From Sclerodactyla briareus (lineage: Eukaryota; Echinodermata; Holothuroidea; Dendrochirotida; Sclerodactylidae): DNA of 64,000 bases. Both the position numbers and the translations under genes were made by a program. The stretch lies in assembly GCA_026419785.1 (NCBI GenBank), contig JAODTK010005896.1, positions 1-64,000 on the forward strand, in the 5' to 3' direction. Numbering within the stretch: position 1 is the stretch's first letter; the number at the start of each line of letters is the position of its first letter. The notes under the pieces are model-generated. The model made no database searches, was not told the DNA's origin, and saw only the letters and a list, made by a program, of their open reading frames with translations. Below are positions 38,601 through 64,000 of the stretch, piece by piece.

Positions 38601-40255
38601 CGGTGGCAGGAAGAGCCGGGCCGGTGGAAAGACCAGCAGGCCAATAAGGTTGTGCCCTGGCGGCTGGTTCTAGCTGGTTGGGGCACGAGGAGCGCCAGCT
38701 GGCTTCAAACGGAACGTCAGATCCTATGGCGCAGGCGGCACGCTTGTCGGAGTCAGTAGACTGGGCCAACCCCCGAGGGCCCGGGGCTCCGTTTGCCCCG
38801 GTAGGTCGGTCACCGAGGGGTCGGACCCCATCATGAAAGGCTGACGCTTGAGGTTGGAGTCCCGGCTAATGAGAAGCGCCAGGTCGTTTTTTTCATCCTG
38901 CCGAACCGACCGTCACTCCTCCTCCGGTTCCGATCCTGGGGCGCTTGGTCGGCTTCGGCCGCGAGGCGCCGATTGCTGCGGCTTGGGGCCCTACGCAGAG
39001 GAGCATACCTACCGTTTTCAGGAAAGCCGACAGATCCGATTTACGATCCTGGGGCAGCAGAACCAATCGCCGAGGGCTTCCGACGGAGGCCAACGGCTCG
39101 GTCGGGGCTGGCGCATTGGAAGCGGCAGAGCCGACCGGGATCCATCCCCGAGGGCTTTTCGCAGGGCAGAATCTCGAGGCACCCACGGGCGCTCGATTGG
39201 CTCCGATCCAGGGGCTCCGGTGGTTTTCGAACACCGAGGTCAGACCCTGGAGGGGACCACGGCTCGTTTGGGGGTTTGCGCCTCCCCCTCCCTCAGGACC
39301 CCGTTCTTGAATGCCTGAAAACCAGTTTGCTGGAGCAGTCTGGGTCCCTTGGAGCATGCCCCGCCACCGGCGTCAACGGTCCCGGTAGAGGTCGCCTTTG
39401 TTTCGGTCGTTCCCTCGCCTCGGATGCCCATTTGGGGTTTCCTTCCTCTATCCCCGGGCTTCGAGCGGGGCGTTTTGTTCCTCGGTAACAGACATTCCCG
39501 TGAACGCTCCGGAAAGGAGGCGGGTACCCCGCCACATTCCAAACGGGGACTGGGGGCTCCGAATAGCCGTCCCGATCGGAACACCAACCCGCCGTCGTCC
39601 CGCCTGTCCCTCATTGCCGCCGGGGGCCGGTAGACAACCACCCTGTGGGGGGGGGGGGGGCCGATCCCGATGGTAGGGGTTTCATCACCCCCTTCGAGTT
39701 CACATCGCCCGGGGACCTCTCCACAAAGGGGATGTCCGAAAACCCCCTGAGGGCGGCGAAAATGGACTCTGTGAGACCATCGACTTCGTCGGTTCCCTCA
39801 TGTGACCGCATGCACTTAATTAACGCAACCGGCTCGTCGTGGAATCGTGGTCACGCGTGAGGGGGGCCAGCTCTCGGCGGGACAAAAAAGAAACCGGAAA
39901 TGTGATCGCAGCTAGCGTCAGCCACGGGCCACGGGCGCGTGGCCGGACATCGTCGGCCCTAGGCGGTGTCAAAACAACCTAAAAACGGAGGGCATGGAAG
40001 CTGCTTCGTTGCGGACTTGTGGGCCCTCCTGGGCGTAGACCCCTCTTTGTGGGCGGCTTCAATGCCGCCCGGCGCAGTCGAGAACCGGGCAGGAGGGGCC
40101 GGCCTCCCGGCCATCGCCCGTCCGACCAGACCACTGGATCCGGGGGCTCCGGTGGTCGACACCGAGGTCCGGACCCGAGGGTTGTCGCCGGTCTCGTTAG
40201 GGCAACCTGCGGAGCGCCCGGTCGGCTTCGGCCGAACCACCACCGGGACAGGTGG
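38456..40255 (+). repeat. Long tandem unit, copy 1 (about 1.8 kb)
   Basis: It runs from CTCCGGTGGACCATACACC to the sub-repeats before the next CTCCGGTGGACCAGACAGCC. Shared landmarks with copy 2 are GGTTGGGGCACGAGGAGCGC (38676 and 40476), AACCAATCGCCGAGGGC (39060 and 40850), CGGCTCGTTTGGGGG (39259 and 41039), AGACATTCCCGTGA (39489 and 41257), CGCCTGTCCCTCATTGCCG (39600 and 41363) and CATGGAAGCTGCTTCGT (39994 and 41697). Confidence 0.88.
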
Positions 40256-41825
40256 CTCCGGTGGACCAGACAGCCAAGATCCGTATCTATAAGGGCGCCG
40301 GTGGGGCGCCAGATCGGCTCGGCCGGCTGAACCGACCACCGCGACTCCGGCGTCTTACACCGAGGTCCGGTCTCCGATAGGGTCAACGACCGGTTGGGGC
40401 CCGGTGGCAGGAGATCCGGGCCGGTGGAAAGACCACAAGTCCAGAGAAGGTTGTGCCGGGCGGCTGTTCTATCTGGTTGGGGCACGAGGAGCGCCAGGCG
40501 GGCTTCAAACGGACGGTCCGATCTAGTGCGCATGCAGGGCCCGCGGTCGGACTCATATACTGGCCAACCACCGAGGCACAGGGCCCGTTGGCCCCGTAGG
40601 TCGGTCACCGAGGTGCGGACCTCATGAAAGGCCTACGCTTGCGGTTGAAGTCCTCGAATTAGAAGCGCCATGCTGTTTTTTTCAGCCTGCTCCGAACCGA
40701 CCGTCACTCTCGTTTCGGGTCCTGGGTCCAGCGCTTGGTCTGGCTTCGGTCGCGAGAACGCCGATGGCTCGGCTGGGGAGCCCGACGCATGAGGAAGCCC
40801 ATGACCGTTTTCAGCCGACCAGGTCGATTACGATCCTGGGGCCGGGCAGAACCAATCGCCGAGGGCTCCGACGGAGGCAACGCTCGGTCGGGGCTTGCGC
40901 ATTGGAAGCGGCAGGGCCGACCCGCCATCTCGAGGGCTTTCGAAGGTCAGATCTCGCGGCACCACGGGGCGCTCGATTGGCTCCGAGCCAGGGGCTCGGG
41001 TGGTTTTGAACACCGGGTCAGGACCCTGGATGGACCAACGGCTCGTTTGGGGGGTTTTGGCGCCTCCCCCTCCCTCAGACCCCAGTTCGTGCATGCCCTG
41101 AACACCAGTTTCTGGAGCAGTCCTCGGGTCCCTTTGGAGCAGCCCCGCCACCGGCGTCAACTGGTCCCTTAGAGGGCGCCTTTGTTCCGGTCGTTCACTC
41201 ACCTCGGAACCCACGGTTTTCCCTCGGGCGCCGGGCGGGGCGTTGTTCCTCGGTACAGACATTCCCGTGACCTCCGTAATGAGCGGTCGCCACATTCAAC
41301 GGGGACTGGGCTCCTAAGAGCCCGTCCCGATGGAACAGCCACCCCCCCCGCGCCTTCCGTCCCGCCTGTCCCTCATTGCCGGGCCGGTAGACACCCCCCT
41401 GTGGGGCCGATCGATGGAGAGGGTTTCACCCACTTCGAGTTCATCGCCCGGGGCCTCCACAAAGAGGGATGTCTCGAACCCCTGAGGCGGCTAAAATGAA
41501 CTCTGGGACCTGGACTCGCGGTCCGCACTGGGGTACCATTACTTACGGCTCGTCGGGGAAATCGGGGTCACGCGTAGATGGGCGCAGCTCTCGGCGGGCC
41601 CGGAAATGGGATCGCAGCCTAGGCTCGCAGCGCCTCCGTATGGGCCCGGGCGCGTGGCGGTACATCGGACTCGAGGCGTGTCAAAACCTAAGAGGCCATG
41701 GAAGCTGCTTCGTGCGGACTTGCCCTCCTGGGCGTAGACCCCTCTTTGTGGGCTTCAATGCCTCCCGGCAGTCAGAACCCGGCAGGAGCCGTCCTCCGGC
41801 CACGCCGCCGCCTCGACCTCTAGCT
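40256..41825 (+). repeat. Long tandem unit, copy 2 (about 1.57 kb, shortened)
   Basis: Collinear with copy 1 but about 230 bp shorter. Much of the loss comes from dispersed small deletions, many at homopolymers, rather than one block. Examples are GGGCCGATCGATGGAGAGGG against GGGCCGATCCCGATGGTAGG, and shorter G runs at 41400. It ends where the shared text GGCTTCAATGCC, CGGCAGTC and CGGCAGGAG stops near 41800. No third copy follows. Confidence 0.85.
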
Positions 41826-43640
41826 GAAGGGGAGGCCTAAGGCATAGGCGAAAGCGAGGTCCTTTACTTTCATTCCTCGGAGCACCACCGCGGAGTACGC
41901 CCGTTCGTCCAAGGCAATTCCGATCCTTCCTCACGACGGGGTCGGCGGACGCGAGAGACTACGGGACGCTCATCTTCCCAGGCACCCGCTTCACGTCCGA
42001 TTCCTAGCGTTCTGCTACATGGGGCATGACTACCGCTTGGTGGTCCCTCCCATTCTGCCTCCCGCTACAAGGGGGCATGACACCTCTGTGGTCCTCCCAT
42101 TCGGCCTCCCTAAGGCCCCGAGCTCTTCACCTGGTCTGCAGCCCCATCTTCGATTTCTTGCCGGCAGGAGGGCTCACAAGTCCCCCCCGTCGCTCACACC
42201 GACGATTGCCTTGGTGGCCCGTAGAAAGCGGGTCCGATTGCTCATACCGCGCGGCTCTCAGCGCGTCTCGGACAATGCCGCGGCTGCAGTGTTCATCCTG
42301 CCCTCTGATTATTCCCCGCCAGGCCGGGACTCGGTCCCTTGGTTCACGGCGGCCACTATGATCGATATTTCTCGATTCTGCCGTTCCGCGCGCGGCCGCT
42401 GCGGCGCAGTACGTTGGTCGCTCCGCCCAAGCCGATCCCTCATCGTGGGGAGCTGGCTCTTCTGTCCTGATGACGGAGCCACATAGGGGCGGCGTGGGCA
42501 GAGCCGCATGGGGCGCTGCGGTATATCCGCTTTTGCGACTCCATTCCCAGGGCGACAGTGACCACAGACAGCGTCGCTCTCGGTAGGGGCCAGCTTAGAC
42601 GATGCCCTGTTTTGGGCAGATCAGCGGCAAGGTGCACCGCAGTGACGGTCCCGATCGCACCGTTCGTCCATCTCTTCGTGGCGGCTAACATGCGCGACTT
42701 CATACCTCTCTGGGTCCTGACCCTTTCCGGCTCAGTCAGATTGGTTAGATGGGTACCACGTCACTTGCGCCCGTGTCTCTTTTGGGGGAGACGAGCCAAC
42801 AGTGCTCCGACAAGCGGCGTTCTGGACCGGTCTGCCGACGTCGCAACATCCTCGTTTGTGACCCCTGGTTTCCTCGGTAGGCCGGCGATGTCATTCGTCT
42901 TGGCAAACTCTACTACCAGGGGAAGCAGGGCTTACGACTCCCGGGCACTTCCGCTCTCCGCCCTTGCGGCGATACATCGCGGTTTTCCGCGATGGGTCCT
43001 CCAGGGCGGAGGTGGTCACTGACAGCCAGCTCTTAGGCGAACGTTAGTGAGCGTCACCTGCCGCTCATTTTGGCTCCCGCGTTTTCCCCTCGCCACATCG
43101 CTAAACGCCTTACGACTCTGGGACTCCTCACCTCCACGCCGTTTTTGTTTGGGTGGCAGTGGCCTCCGCCGCGCAGGAGCTGTCTTGATGGGCACTTCCT
43201 ACTACGCCGTTTCTTCCTGGCACGTCCCGACGGGATCCCGTGCCTCTCGGATCGCTTTCTTTGCGAAGATCCCGTCGGTGGCGTTCGCGCCGGAGAGTGA
43301 CTCCCGCGATCGGGTCCGCCCGCGGGAATACCGAGGACAAGCAGTGGTGCCCGTCCAGGCCATGGGCTTGGTTATTGAGAGGACTCGTTTGATCGTCAAC
43401 GGCGATCAATTTTTGGCTTACCGATCCGCCGGCAGCTGGCTTCTCGAGCCGGCTAGACAGAAGTCGCGAGGAAAGCGGCGGCGGGAAAGACTCGGAACAC
43501 CTTTGTCGCGTGCTCTGGACGAAGACGGTGGACAAGGAAGGGCAGTAGCCATAGCGGCTCTGCAAGCTCCGACTACTCAGCATCCGCCTGCACGGCGCGA
43601 GGCACGGGCCCACACCCCGAGCGCCCTGTGCTAGAATGGT
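41826..43640 (+). other. Unique GC-rich segment with unassigned ORFs
   Basis: This part lacks the internal repeats of its left neighbour. Open stretches include 42019-42486 (155 codons), 42558-43022 (154 codons) and 43047-43634 (195 codons) on the plus strand, all starting at ATG, with competing ORFs on the minus strand at 43128-43613. None contains a motif, signal peptide or domain that I recognise. Three back-to-back ORFs on one strand are mildly suggestive, but ORFs of this length are expected by chance in such GC-rich DNA. No TATA box, splice pattern or polyadenylation signal supports a gene. Confidence 0.35.
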
Positions 43641-43649
43641 GCATGTTCG

Positions 43650-43738
43650 ATAAGGGGTAAGTTAGAGTAGGTGAAATAGATTCTACAAAACCGTACGGGT
43701 TTGTGAATCTGTGAGCTACGAATTTTACTTACCCTTAT
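43650..43738. repeat. 89-bp imperfect palindrome, element 1
   Basis: The outer arms are ATAAGGGGTAAGT (43650-43662) and ACTTACCCTTAT (43727-43738). The inner arms are AGATTCTACAAAACCGTACG and the complement running to 43710. Both arm pairs are centred on the same point (about 43694, in CCGTACGG), so it is one nested palindrome rather than two. It stands exactly at the right edge of the GC-rich block. Confidence 0.85.
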
Positions 43739-47063: not shown

Positions 47064-47119
47064 CCTAATAGCCAATGGTCCTAATAGCCAATGGTCCTAA
47101 TAGCCAATGGTCCTAATAG
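47064..47119 (+). repeat. 16-bp tandem repeat, 3.5 copies
   Basis: CCTAATAGCCAATGGT is repeated exactly at 47064, 47080 and 47096, with a partial copy to 47119. Each unit contains a CCAAT pentamer. It looks like recent slippage; no promoter is recognised nearby. Confidence 0.92.
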
Positions 47120-48970: not shown

Positions 48971-49231
48971 AAGACAAAGAAGGAGAATTCCAAATAGATA
49001 ACTGATTAATTGCTTGTAATATCTTTGTGGCACACTTCACATAAACATAAAACTGCAGTTTTATGAATCACATCCACCATTGGTGGGTATTCTTTTGAAA
49101 GAGTCTGCCTTCCTTGCTAGTTGAACCAGGTGATGAAGAGGAGTGGCCATCAAAAACTATTCGACCCACCCATGACCACTCTTGACAGCATATGGCAGCC
49201 CTAATCACCTTGTTCTTACTTTTCTTGGCAG

Positions 49232-51222: not shown

Positions 51223-51478
51223 ATGAATTGCGAGCACCGGAGCCTCCGCAGATTGCGGGTATAGAGGCCACCACCGATTCTCACCATCCAATGGACAAGT
51301 GACTCCTCTGTTACTGGCTATCAGATCACTCTCGACCCGGTGGGCACTGTAGACCTGGGTGCCGATGAGACCAGTTACACCTTCACTGGACTCGATGCAG
51401 ACACTGATTACGTCCTGCGTCTCAAAGCAGTGAATGACATCGGCACCAGCCCCCCGACGGAACAGCTGGTTGCTACTG
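51223..51478 (+). CDS. FN3 exon D
   Basis: A clean 256-nt phase 1-1 exon. The acceptor is TCTCACCTCCACAG and the donor ACTG|GTGAT. It encodes ELRAPEPPQIAGIEATTDS; removal of one C near 51280 restores TIQWTSDSSVTGYQITLDP, SYTFTGLDADTDYVLRLKAV and NDIGTSPPTEQLVATG. The strand-B Trp, strand-C Tyr and the L-x-x-x-T-x-Y turn of FN3 are all present. This is the best-preserved domain of the array. Confidence 0.92.
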
Positions 51479-57051: not shown

Positions 57052-58108
57052 GTGAGTTGAGCTCAGGGTCGAGTCACTGCTATGGTCCTAGTTTAGTGTG
57101 GTAGTTTGTGCATTTAAGTGGACATTAGTTAAACATTTCCCCATCAACACTCCCATGTGGAAAATGTTTACAGTTTATATGTGCAATCAGGGAACTCATG
57201 GTTTGCGCGGTGTATTCCTAACATCAAAAATTTCTCAGGTGGTGAACATTGGCAATAAGGCCTCCGATAGAGTGTCCCGAAAACCCAAAAGAAAAAAAAA
57301 AGCAACCTAGGGCCAGTGAACCTTGATGACACATGAAATTATATGGCAAGGAACAACTAGGCAGTTTATTCTTGAATCGGGAATGTCAACTGACTAACAA
57401 TTTTGCCGACTGACCATCGGTAATTATTGCAACTAGTTCTGCGAGCACCTTGAAAACTTGTGGCTTTGTTGCCAGCTATGTATGTTTTTGTTTGTAGGTA
57501 AGCAAGTATGTAGGTATGTGTTACATGGTAAGCCACCACTATGGCAATGATGTATTTTGGGACAATTTTGCTGAAGTTCATAGTTATGTGGCTATTTCAC
57601 CAGCCTTCTCAGTTTTCAACTTGGGCTAATACATTCAGCTTTCGGCAACTGGTCAGTAATTGTTGAAATTAAACCTACTAGGTGTCAGTCGTATAATAGC
57701 ATTCCATCACTCGGGTTGTACTGTATTTACAGTGTTCATGGAGGGAGCAGAAGCAGTCTATCTAATCACAGAGATCAAATCACCCAGTGGGGCAGCACAT
57801 TATCAGAAGAGCAACTATCCCAACACACTGTATATAGCATAGGACAGTTAGAGGCTAGAAAACTACATAACCTTTTCTAAAAAATCATGGCTGTAATTCA
57901 GTGAGATATTGGGATGTTCTCAGGTTGATTTTTTTTCTTCAAAAGTCGATGCCAGTAACATTGAAGGTATCACATTTTTACTGTTTCAACAATGCCATAA
58001 GTTCTCAAGACATTTGACGATGCACACGGGATGTTTGATTCACCTTACATATGTGTGGGTAGTCAACAATTAGAGTCAAAATTTTTTTTTTTTTATATTT
58101 TGAACCAG
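57052..58108 (+). other. Intron between exons G and H
   Basis: No exon or clear repeat is recognised. A T-rich run (58081-58099) directly precedes the exon H acceptor. Confidence 0.55.
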
Positions 58109-58314
58109 ATTCAATGCCTGAGGTTGAAGAGCCACTCCGAGGTGCATGTGGGGGAGTACAAGGTGCGGAACTTTGAGGCGGAGGTAATGGGCCAGACCGT
58201 GATTCTTACCTGGGACCCACCCACCCTGCAGGAGGACGAGACCTTGCTTGGCTACCTCCTCCAGATTGATGCAGAGGCCATCTCTCTCAGCACCTCACTC
58301 AGACTCCATTACAG
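58109..58314 (+). CDS. FN3 exon H (first half of a split domain)
   Basis: The acceptor TTTGAACCAG ends at 58108 and the donor CATTACAG|GTAAGG follows 58314. The text begins SMPEVEEPLRG, shifts to KVRNFEAEVMGQTVILTWDP then PTLQEDETLLGYLLQIDAEA: strand B TWDPP and strand C GYLLQI of FN3. To join exon I in phase 1 the end must be read as PSLSAPHSDSITG, one more frame change. The last ~47 nt of this exon plus the start of the intron form the first unit of an eight-copy tandem array. Confidence 0.78.
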
Positions 58315-58738
58315 GTAAGGTGTATATGATGCAGTGGCCATCTCTCTCAGCACCTCACTCAGACTCCATTACAGGTAAGGTGTATAAGATGCAGAGGCCA
58401 TCTCTCTCAGCACCTCACTCAGACTCCACTACAGGTAAGGTGTATAAGATGCAGAGGCTATCTCTCTCAGCACCTCACTCAGACTCCATTACAGGTAAAG
58501 TGTATAAGATGCAGAGGCTATCTCTCTCAGCACCTCACTCAGACTCCATACAGGTAAGGTGTATAAGATGCAGAGGCCATCTCTCTCAGCACCTCATTCA
58601 GACTCCATTACAGGTAGGTGTATAAGATGCAGAGGCGATCTCTCTCAGCACCTCACTCAGACTCCATTACAGGTAAGGTGTATAAGATGCAGAGGCGATC
58701 TCTCTCAGCACCTCACTCAGACTCCATTACAGGTAAGT
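58262..58738 (+). repeat. Eight-copy ~60-bp tandem array of an exon end plus its splice donor
   Basis: The unit is GATGCAGAGGCCATCTCTCT then CAGCACCTCACTCAGACTCC, then ATTACAG|GTAAGGTGTATAA. The exon-like 3' ends fall at 58314, 58374, 58434, 58494, 58553, 58613, 58672 and 58732. Each is followed by a GTAAGG, GTAAAG, GTAGGT or GTAAGT donor. Units differ at only a few positions (GCCATC, GCTATC or GCGATC). Two units are 59 bp, the rest 60. The first unit overlaps coding sequence of FN3 exon H. Each unit also contains TCTCTCTCAG, which resembles a weak acceptor. Confidence 0.95.
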
Positions 58739-59019
58739 GTATAAGATGAACAGTCCACCTTTCTCTTAGCAATTCACAATATTGGATACAATATCTGCGA
58801 GTCCAAACCCATTCCAGTATGACTGTCCTATGTCAAGTTATTGAGTGCTATTGAGCAACTGAAAGAGATCTGATTTACAGGGGCAGTTTTTGGCTTGAAC
58901 CAGCTATACATACACAGTGAGCATATTTTTCTGTGTGTCTGTCTGCCGGCCCATCTGTCTCCCCGCTGGTTGGCCTGCCTTGGACACAATGTTCATTGTC
59001 AAATTAATTTGAATGAGGC

Positions 59020-59874: not shown

Positions 59875-60000
59875 GCAAGATCCACACCTTCAGAAACCTG
59901 GAACCTCTGAGTGATACATTCCATGCAATATGGAACCAATCAGACGGGAGCTGCCGTGGCCCAGCGAGAGGGGTCCTTCAACACAATGTATGGAGTCCAT
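59875..60000 (+). CDS. FN3 exon I (second half of the exon H domain)
   Basis: The acceptor TTTGTTTTACAG ends at 59874. The text KIHTFRNLEPLSDT fits the E strand and E-F loop of FN3 (TF..L.P.S.Y). After a one-base shift NQTGAAVAQREGSFNT follows, as a plausible F-G region. The donor is uncertain: ATG|TATGG-type, CCAT|GTAGGT at 60001 or GTAG|GTAGT at 60005. The end is therefore good to about 10 nt. Reading it after exon H in phase 1 gives SDSITG-KIHTFRN. Confidence 0.62.
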
Positions 60001-60371
60001 GTAGGTAGTATTTCAGTATATTTGGTTGACATTATTACCTTAGTACACTCTTGCAGATCTAACAAGTGTTCTGTTGGTGATCTTCTGACGTTCTTCTCTG
60101 TTTATAATTGGGCAGGAATCTGCGTAAGGGGTACATAGCTCCAACATTTTTTCAACACTTGTATGGACTGGCTGGACTGGTATGTTTGGATTTGCTTAAG
60201 GAAGTTTATGGTCTGGTGTTGTCATGCATGTTCACTGTTCCGGTGCTTTGGCACTACTCTTCTGAATCAACTGAAACTACTTAGTGACTAGTGTTGTATA
60301 GATAGAAGTCAGATATATCATTGAAGTAGGTTCGCCAATTATTCATTGATCCTTAAAATCCCCTTTTTCAG

Positions 60372-63039: not shown

Positions 63040-64000
63040 CAAATATCAAGATGTATCTTCTCCTACAAATTTTGGTGCACAGTGTGCTGATGTTTGGTCA
63101 TAATGATGGTCTATCAGCCGTACCTTCGGGGTGTTCAGGAATTTTTGTCCAAGGTCCCAGTTGGGCCAAGGGCCCATTTTATTGATTTTCACACAATGGT
63201 GCTCGAGATGCATGTCCTCCTACAAGCTTCAATTAATTTTCTTCAAAGTTACATGTGATGCTTCTTGGGTAAAGAACCATTGTGGATGTTCAGGAAGTTG
63301 GGCCATTGTGTGAAATACCACAAAATCTTGTATCTCCAACAAATTTAGTTGCACAGTGCTGATGTTCAGTCATGATATAATGATGGTCAAATAGCCGTAC
63401 CTTTGAGGTGTTCAGGATTTTTTGGTCAGAGGTCTGACGTGGGCCTGAGGGCCCATTTATGATATTTCACACAATGGTGCTCGAGATGCATGTCCTCCTA
63501 CAAGCTTCAATTAATTTTCTACAAAGTTACCTGTAATGCTTCTTGGGTAAAGAACCATTGTGGGTGTTCAGGAATTTTGGGCGTTTGGGCCATAGGGCCC
63601 ATGTGTGAAAGTACACCAAAATCTTGTATCTCCAACAAATTTAGTTGCACAGTGCTGATGTTCAGTCATAATGATGGTCAAATAGCCGTACCTTTGGGGT
63701 GTTCAGGATTTTTTGGTCCGAGTTCGGACGTGGGCTTGAGGGCCCATTTATGATATTTCACACAATGGTGCTCGAGATGCATGTCCTCCTACAAGCTTCA
63801 ATTGAATTTCTTAAAAAACATGTAAGGTTCTTGGGTAAGTGCCATTGGAGATGTTCAGGAATTTTGGGCCCAGGCCCAGTTTTTGGGCCTCTGGGCTCAT
63901 TATGTGAAATACCGCAAAATCTTGTATCTCCTACGAAATTCTGTTGCACCATGCTGATGTTCAGTCAATTGTGTCTAATAGCCGTACTGTCAGGGTGCCC
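63040..64000 (+). repeat. ~285-bp tandem repeat, more than 3 copies, continuing past the window
   Basis: CAATGGTGCTCGAGATGCAT followed by GTCCTCCTACAAGCTTCAAT starts at 63193, 63473 and 63763 (periods 280 and 290). Each unit also has AAAGAACCATTGTGG, GTTCAGGAA, AATCTTGTATCTCCAACAAA, TGTTCAGTCAT and AATAGCCGTACCTTTG. A single diverged relative lies at 12825-13130. It is intronic with respect to the FN3 gene. Cut by the window end. Confidence 0.92.

Follow-up and report, generated by a model that had tools for sequence, protein, structure and literature searches.

The window that we analysed, the first 64,000 nucleotides (forward strand) of contig JAODTK010005896.1 in the Sclerodactyla briareus assembly GCA_026419785.1, carries several exons of an FN3-domain gene, one of which ends in a tandem array of eight near-identical units that repeat its 3' end together with the adjoining 5' splice site (Table 1). 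Upstream exons at 51265 and 52763 match the Pfam fn3 family clearly (47.6 and 43.6 bits). The predicted exon that leads into the array is open throughout in one of its three frames, the frame at 58109 (..YKVRNFEAEVMGQTVILTWDPPTLQEDETLLGYLLQIDAEAISLSTSLRLHYR), and its fn3 match (15.6 bits, E 0.02) lies under the cut-off. The next FN3 exon part had no Pfam match when searched alone, and a query joining the two exons matched FN3 domains of titin weakly in the PDB (best E 0.00011).

The array spans 58268-58744 on the + strand and consists of units of 60, 60, 60, 60, 59, 59, 60 and 59 bp, each corresponding to the final 47 nt of the FN3 exon and the initial 13 nt of its intron, the split given in the preliminary description of this DNA. 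Tandem Repeats Finder (TRF), run on the window, gave it a score of 878 with 8.1 copies, against a top score of 54 in 20 base-shuffled windows; with AG/GT (here and below, the slash marks the splice junction) present in eight of eight units, the claim that an exon end had seeded eight tandem donors is borne out. The two 59-nt intervals described in the donor-to-donor spacing are likewise correct, the third 59-bp unit, unit 8, having lost its base 3' of the donor. Pairwise identity among units is 93-98%, the differences amounting to substitutions in six columns and three one-base losses, and some variants are common to units 4-5 and others to units 7-8. Four of the 47 exonic and four of the 13 intronic columns are variable, so that column counts across the eight units give no sign of conservation of the donor part. 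The exon acceptor (58107-58108) falls outside the repeat unit, which sets the array apart from a tandem exon duplication. Against the rest of the window the units had just chance-like matches of 12-22 nt. Across the 319-Mb genome, the only match of the array-region DNA was the locus itself, no paralog or second haplotype free of the array was found, and the seven matches of the joined FN3 peptide (E up to 10) all lay within the locus, none of which proves rarity. An Rfam scan of the window at gathering scores returned no match. That the array is an expansion error, produced by the assembly from fewer true copies, appears extremely unlikely: many small indels do seem to be present in this assembly, but the substitutions and shared variants just described are at odds with such an error, as are the arrays of other sequences and periods found at many loci (see below). 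The repeat is real.

The last exon bases of the eight donors are 58314, 58374, 58434, 58494, 58553, 58613, 58672 and 58732, and CAG/GT is present in every unit. The stretch 58200-58314 is devoid of GT. The full consensus CAG/GTAAGT occurs only in donor 8, the remaining donors having seven or eight of the nine letters; compared with donor 1, five of donors 2-8 match the consensus equally, one better and one less well. Concealment of the donors by RNA structure was considered and rejected: folding is weaker in the array than in its shuffles (z +3.35), each of 100 shuffles folding equally well or better, and the donors thus do not look hidden.

As assembled, the frame of the exon is kept open by donor 1 only: a TAA follows at this donor and stops recur in the array units, so that splicing from donors 2-8 would truncate the protein. 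A different frame is open across the first units (open reading frame 58203-58625) and meets four stops upstream inside the same exon (58119, 58125, 58185 and 58200). The preliminary description had stated these frames accurately, letter by letter, but left the four stops unmentioned. It had proposed on this basis a copy-number-variable switch of isoform length, in which use of later donors would add about 20 residues per unit (KVYKMQRPSLSAPHSDSITG). With donors 2-8 in use, these residues would come to lie between FN3 strands C and E. We consider this unlikely, and the assembled sequence does not support it, given the four stops that close the array-open frame upstream and the TAA at donor 1. 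Moreover, the consensus unit, repeated in tandem, is open in two frames, but at least one frame is likewise open in 80% of units shuffled at constant composition, which makes an open frame weak evidence. In favour of the switch, a single one-base assembly error near 58250-58300 would turn the frame of the exon into the array-open one and let it join the acceptor at 59875 in phase 1, the phase in which the neighbouring FN3 exons seem, by eye, to start and end; with a phase-1 join, the fn3 match also becomes a little longer and scores slightly higher (18.3 versus 15.9 bits), although the scores of the four joins compared (16.0, 15.9, 18.1 and 18.3 bits) are not decisive. Comparable duplications have been described in amphioxus as 'mirages', minisatellite-like duplications across exon-intron boundaries, and are reported not to disturb regular splicing (PMC3087553; available part of PMC3902484). 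Lancelet PGBD5 has an annotated exon composed of 108-bp repeats that would add 57 residues, but it had no cDNA support and the authors omitted it (PMC3902484, same part).

How much weight these frame arguments can bear depends on the quality of the assembly, which seems to carry indel errors. Using actin as a yardstick (three loci of 27 matches, some copies of which may be pseudogenes), we counted four frame changes within about 1.85 kb of actin-matching sequence: one in a stretch of 602 nt (residues 168-376; identity rising from 57% to 93% at the change) and three in a stretch of 525 nt (residues 204-376; identity 80-100%), with none in the other actin-matching stretches of the three loci. 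Further actin matches in the genome carry stops. In the exon of asparaginyl-tRNA synthetase discussed below, the first unit contains one extra base, absent from the later units inspected. Between 51150 and 57180 of the window, the FN3 domain runs on across frame changes in four exons (at about 51228, 52792, 54690 and 56810, by eye), pointing to assembly indel errors or to gene decay; the exon at 58109 may, by eye, likewise continue an FN3 domain across a frame change at its start, and a further exon, at 49170, was left out of this comparison. The frame conflict at the array and its one-base indels, those of the 59-bp units among them, may well be assembly errors. Since such errors are probable, the frame argument does not by itself dispose of the length switch, and arguments built on the 59-bp units are weakened too.

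The same frames could be read in the opposite sense, with the array acting as a regulatory or poison element in which later donors are sometimes used and the in-frame TAA lowers mRNA levels by decay, more strongly with more copies. The TAA after donor 1 and the stops recurring in the units of the assembled frame would suit this role, as would the consensus match of donors 2-8, which is about that of donor 1, and the weak folding of the array. We nevertheless hold it to be improbable, as the reading frame is uncertain owing to indels and no aberrant mRNA is reported for the Adh and TnC mirages of amphioxus in the available part of PMC3902484.

A further possibility arises from the presence in every unit of TCTCTCTCAG together with CAG/GT, which, as had been remarked earlier, makes a micro-exon of 24 nt definable in principle. 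The array might then be a series of micro-exons of 23-24 nt, or an intermediate of intron gain with AG/GT as stepwise splice points. The 23-nt version in unit 5 would, on paper, bring the join to the exon at 59875 back into phase 1 and so reconcile the two FN3 parts; it hinges, however, on one missing T in seemingly indel-rich sequence and may have arisen through an indel error of the assembly. An intron between neighbouring units would measure about 36 nt, which is short for an animal. Precedents are on record, intron gain having been proposed for mirages (PMC3087553) and, in the available parts of the respective sources, reported for tandem AGGT copies (PMC4974935) and for human tandem repeats, which are said to activate cryptic sites and form introns (PMC2812944). 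We regard this explanation as very unlikely at the FN3 locus.

Arrays of the same architecture occur in other genes of this genome. We searched it for three copies of CAGGTAAG at 48-78 bp spacing (31 rows on 8 contigs) and for three copies of CAGGTRAG at 28-58 bp spacing (48 rows on 13 contigs); rows count overlapping matches, and large arrays therefore weigh more. Both searches combined covered 17 contigs, with one array counted per contig (a second place on C3001, at 89090, was left out of the count). Exon ends were judged by eye, as an open frame plus an acceptor up to the first donor, the upstream flank being short for C2775, C3072 and C2088 (about 106, 158 and 290 bp). A plausible exon end lies at the array start in 8 of the 17 contigs (C3139, which holds the FN3 array, C2509, C2309, C2234, C2492, C3019, C2358 and C1968), repeated together with its donor about 7 to 31 times. 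The other nine were judged otherwise (C1986, with its array some 90 nt into an intron, C2964, C1070, C1595, C2088, C2775, C2843, C3001 and C3072).

The peptide of the C2509 array, in asparaginyl-tRNA synthetase, had a PDB match (Table 1) and no Pfam match; a separate 59-bp array adjoins it. The TPR exon of C2309 reached 24.3 bits for TPR_17 against a cut-off of 24.4. We take the C2492 peptide to resemble mitochondrial ribosomal protein L9; it had no Pfam match at E 1 and no convincing PDB match (best E 0.53). The C2358 and C1968 peptides had no Pfam match at E 1, and for these two and C3019 the exon end was recognized by open frame and acceptor only. As regards the length switch, the unit consensus is open in the frame of the exon in the asparaginyl-tRNA synthetase (48 bp) and L9-like (39 bp) arrays, which speaks for it. 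By contrast, the frame of the exon runs past the donor directly into a stop in C2309, C1968 and C3019 and within six codons in C2358, and it is closed in the FN3 array as assembled. In C2234 it stays open for 21 residues up to the second donor, and the 64-bp period shifts the frame. TRF periods are divisible by three in five or six of the eight exon-end arrays (C2492 having a period of 38 or 39) versus five of the nine others, and thus the 17 contigs show no clear difference between exon-end and other arrays that would indicate selection for frame on unit length.

Arrays of donors do not stand out clearly from the general run of minisatellites. The non-donor control octamer CAGGARAG, searched over an equal gap range, gave 37 rows on 10 contigs versus the 48 rows on 13 contigs of CAGGTRAG, and an AAGGTRAG search gave 55 rows versus 58 for its backward control (array flanks left out). 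Backward controls of the other motifs gave 18 rows versus 31 for CAGGTAAG, 21 versus 48 for CAGGTRAG and 5 versus 37 for CAGGARAG. Minisatellites abound in this genome and take in donors along with other sequence, although there may be a modest excess of donor arrays over background.

Table 1. Features of the FN3 array and of similar exon-end arrays (positions without a contig handle are those of the window)
Feature	Position	Strand	Evidence or remark
FN3 exon (strands A-C) bounded by acceptor ..gaaccag/ATTCAATG and the first donor	58109..58314	+	predicted; one open frame, weak Pfam fn3 match
Array units 1-4	58268-58327, 58328-58387, 58388-58447, 58448-58507		60 bp each
Array units 5-8	58508-58566, 58567-58625, 58626-58685, 58686-58744		59, 59, 60 and 59 bp
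Donor 1, CAG/GTAAGG, presumed real 5' splice site	58315..58320	+	first GT after 58199; 8/9 consensus letters
Possible 23-nt micro-exon of unit 5 (TCTCTCTCAG/../GTAAGG)	58531..58553	+	putative, read from the sequence
Donor 8, CAG/GTAAGT, decoy or cryptic	58733..58738	+	9/9 consensus letters
Degenerate stub resembling a ninth unit, intronic	58745..58804	+	weak alignment, by eye
Next FN3 exon part (GKIHTFRNLEPLSDTFHAIW..), acceptor tttgttttacag	59875..60004	+	by eye; needs phase 1
Asparaginyl-tRNA synthetase exon end (..GIDPTPYYWYTDQ/) with donor, ~11 copies, 48-bp period	C2509:439885-440390	-	PDB E 8.5e-12
Spectrin-like exon end, ~7 copies, first donor CAG/GAAGTC as assembled	C2234:168678-168940		E 0.0033, below cut-off
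TPR exon end, ~27 copies, 75-bp period, first donor ACAG/AT as assembled	C2309:319044-319727		TPR_17, E 3.3e-5

Taken together, these data lead us to favour, with a probability of roughly 80%, a mirage-type minisatellite in which donor 1 is used and the other copies are neutral intronic decoys. A tandem duplication spanning the 3' end of the FN3 exon and its 5' splice site would have come first, followed by expansion to eight near-identical units. Because the first exon end and donor would stay where they are at each duplication, the extra copies would fall into the intron; the spliceosome would choose donor 1 (58314), and units 2-8, tolerated as decoys, would be removed along with the intron. 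Provided that donor 1 is chosen, the array could grow without any change in the mRNA, and its copy number probably varies between individuals. The gene for asparaginyl-tRNA synthetase is expected to be essential, so the presence of an array in it fits the idea that such arrays are harmless. The first donor is intact in six of the eight exon-end arrays.

Several observations weigh against this reading. Use of donor 1 is predicted from the sequence, and donor 8 is closer to the consensus than donor 1. As assembled, donor 1 is in phase 2 and the acceptor at 59875 in phase 1, so that their join is not clean: it needs an indel, a micro-exon or a shift to another acceptor, the AG at 59892-59893 (ttcag/AAAC), which would suit the phase of donor 1. 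The first donor is broken as assembled in two of the eight exon-end arrays (C2234 and C2309), where it would be unusable unless these are assembly errors. Finally, the lower backward controls of CAGGTAAG and CAGGTRAG would allow donor arrays to be somewhat in excess, which the AAGGTRAG control does not.

Elsewhere in the window, TRF detected a 291-bp tandem unit in about three copies (63059-63870; score 1068) and a perfect 16-bp tandem repeat in 3.5 copies (47064-47119). Several kb of long open frames on both strands, with no Rfam match, lie at 39960-43660.

The recurrence of boundary-spanning minisatellites in unrelated genes raises a broader, quite improbable idea, namely that they make up an evolvable class of splice-donor arrays. 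With units that are open and a multiple of three in length, the copy number, together with first-donor loss, would move the exon end outward by whole residues, with protein length following repeat number. If so, the steps would be 20 residues in the FN3 gene, 16 in asparaginyl-tRNA synthetase and 13 in the L9-like protein, and the spectrin-like array of C2234, with its broken first donor and 21 open residues to the second, would be a case caught in the act. The value of these arrays lies in their number, at least eight independent ones in a single genome repeating a plausible exon end and donor. They offer natural experiments on how the spliceosome chooses one donor among many near-identical tandem ones and on the growth or origin of introns from boundary duplications.

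Among known systems, a human minisatellite is reported, in the title of a paper, to have multiple splice donor sites (Nucleic Acids Res 1995;23:1854); the gene in question is reportedly 6-16 (G1P3/IFI6). Like the FN3 array, this repeat has multiple donors; of the FN3 donors, only the first is predicted to be used. Intron gain through tandem AGGT copies is linked with Rogers 1989, ATP2A1 and fission yeast arrays of 24-bp AGGT units (available part of PMC4974935). The tandem copies of the FN3 array contain AG/GT as well; unlike in those cases, they stand where a predicted intron begins. The closest parallel is that of the amphioxus mirages, known in Adh3, globins (BflGb6 and BflGb9), TnC and PGBD5, one globin having six units in one haplotype and three in the other; their extra AG/GT sites could act as cryptic sites (PMC3087553; available part of PMC3902484). 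Searches of the genome for the GFP family, mNeonGreen, COX1 and class III ADH gave no match, from which little can be concluded, since animals generally should have ADH; actin did match. Unlike the amphioxus genes, the gene carrying the array here encodes an FN3 protein. The array is thus of an already described kind: it has a tandem unit of minisatellite size, spans the boundary of a predicted exon and intron, and contains AG/GT signals in its units. It resembles most specifically amphioxus PGBD5, where a 60-bp unit, present in two or seven copies in two assemblies, abuts the 5' splice site (PMC3902484, same part).
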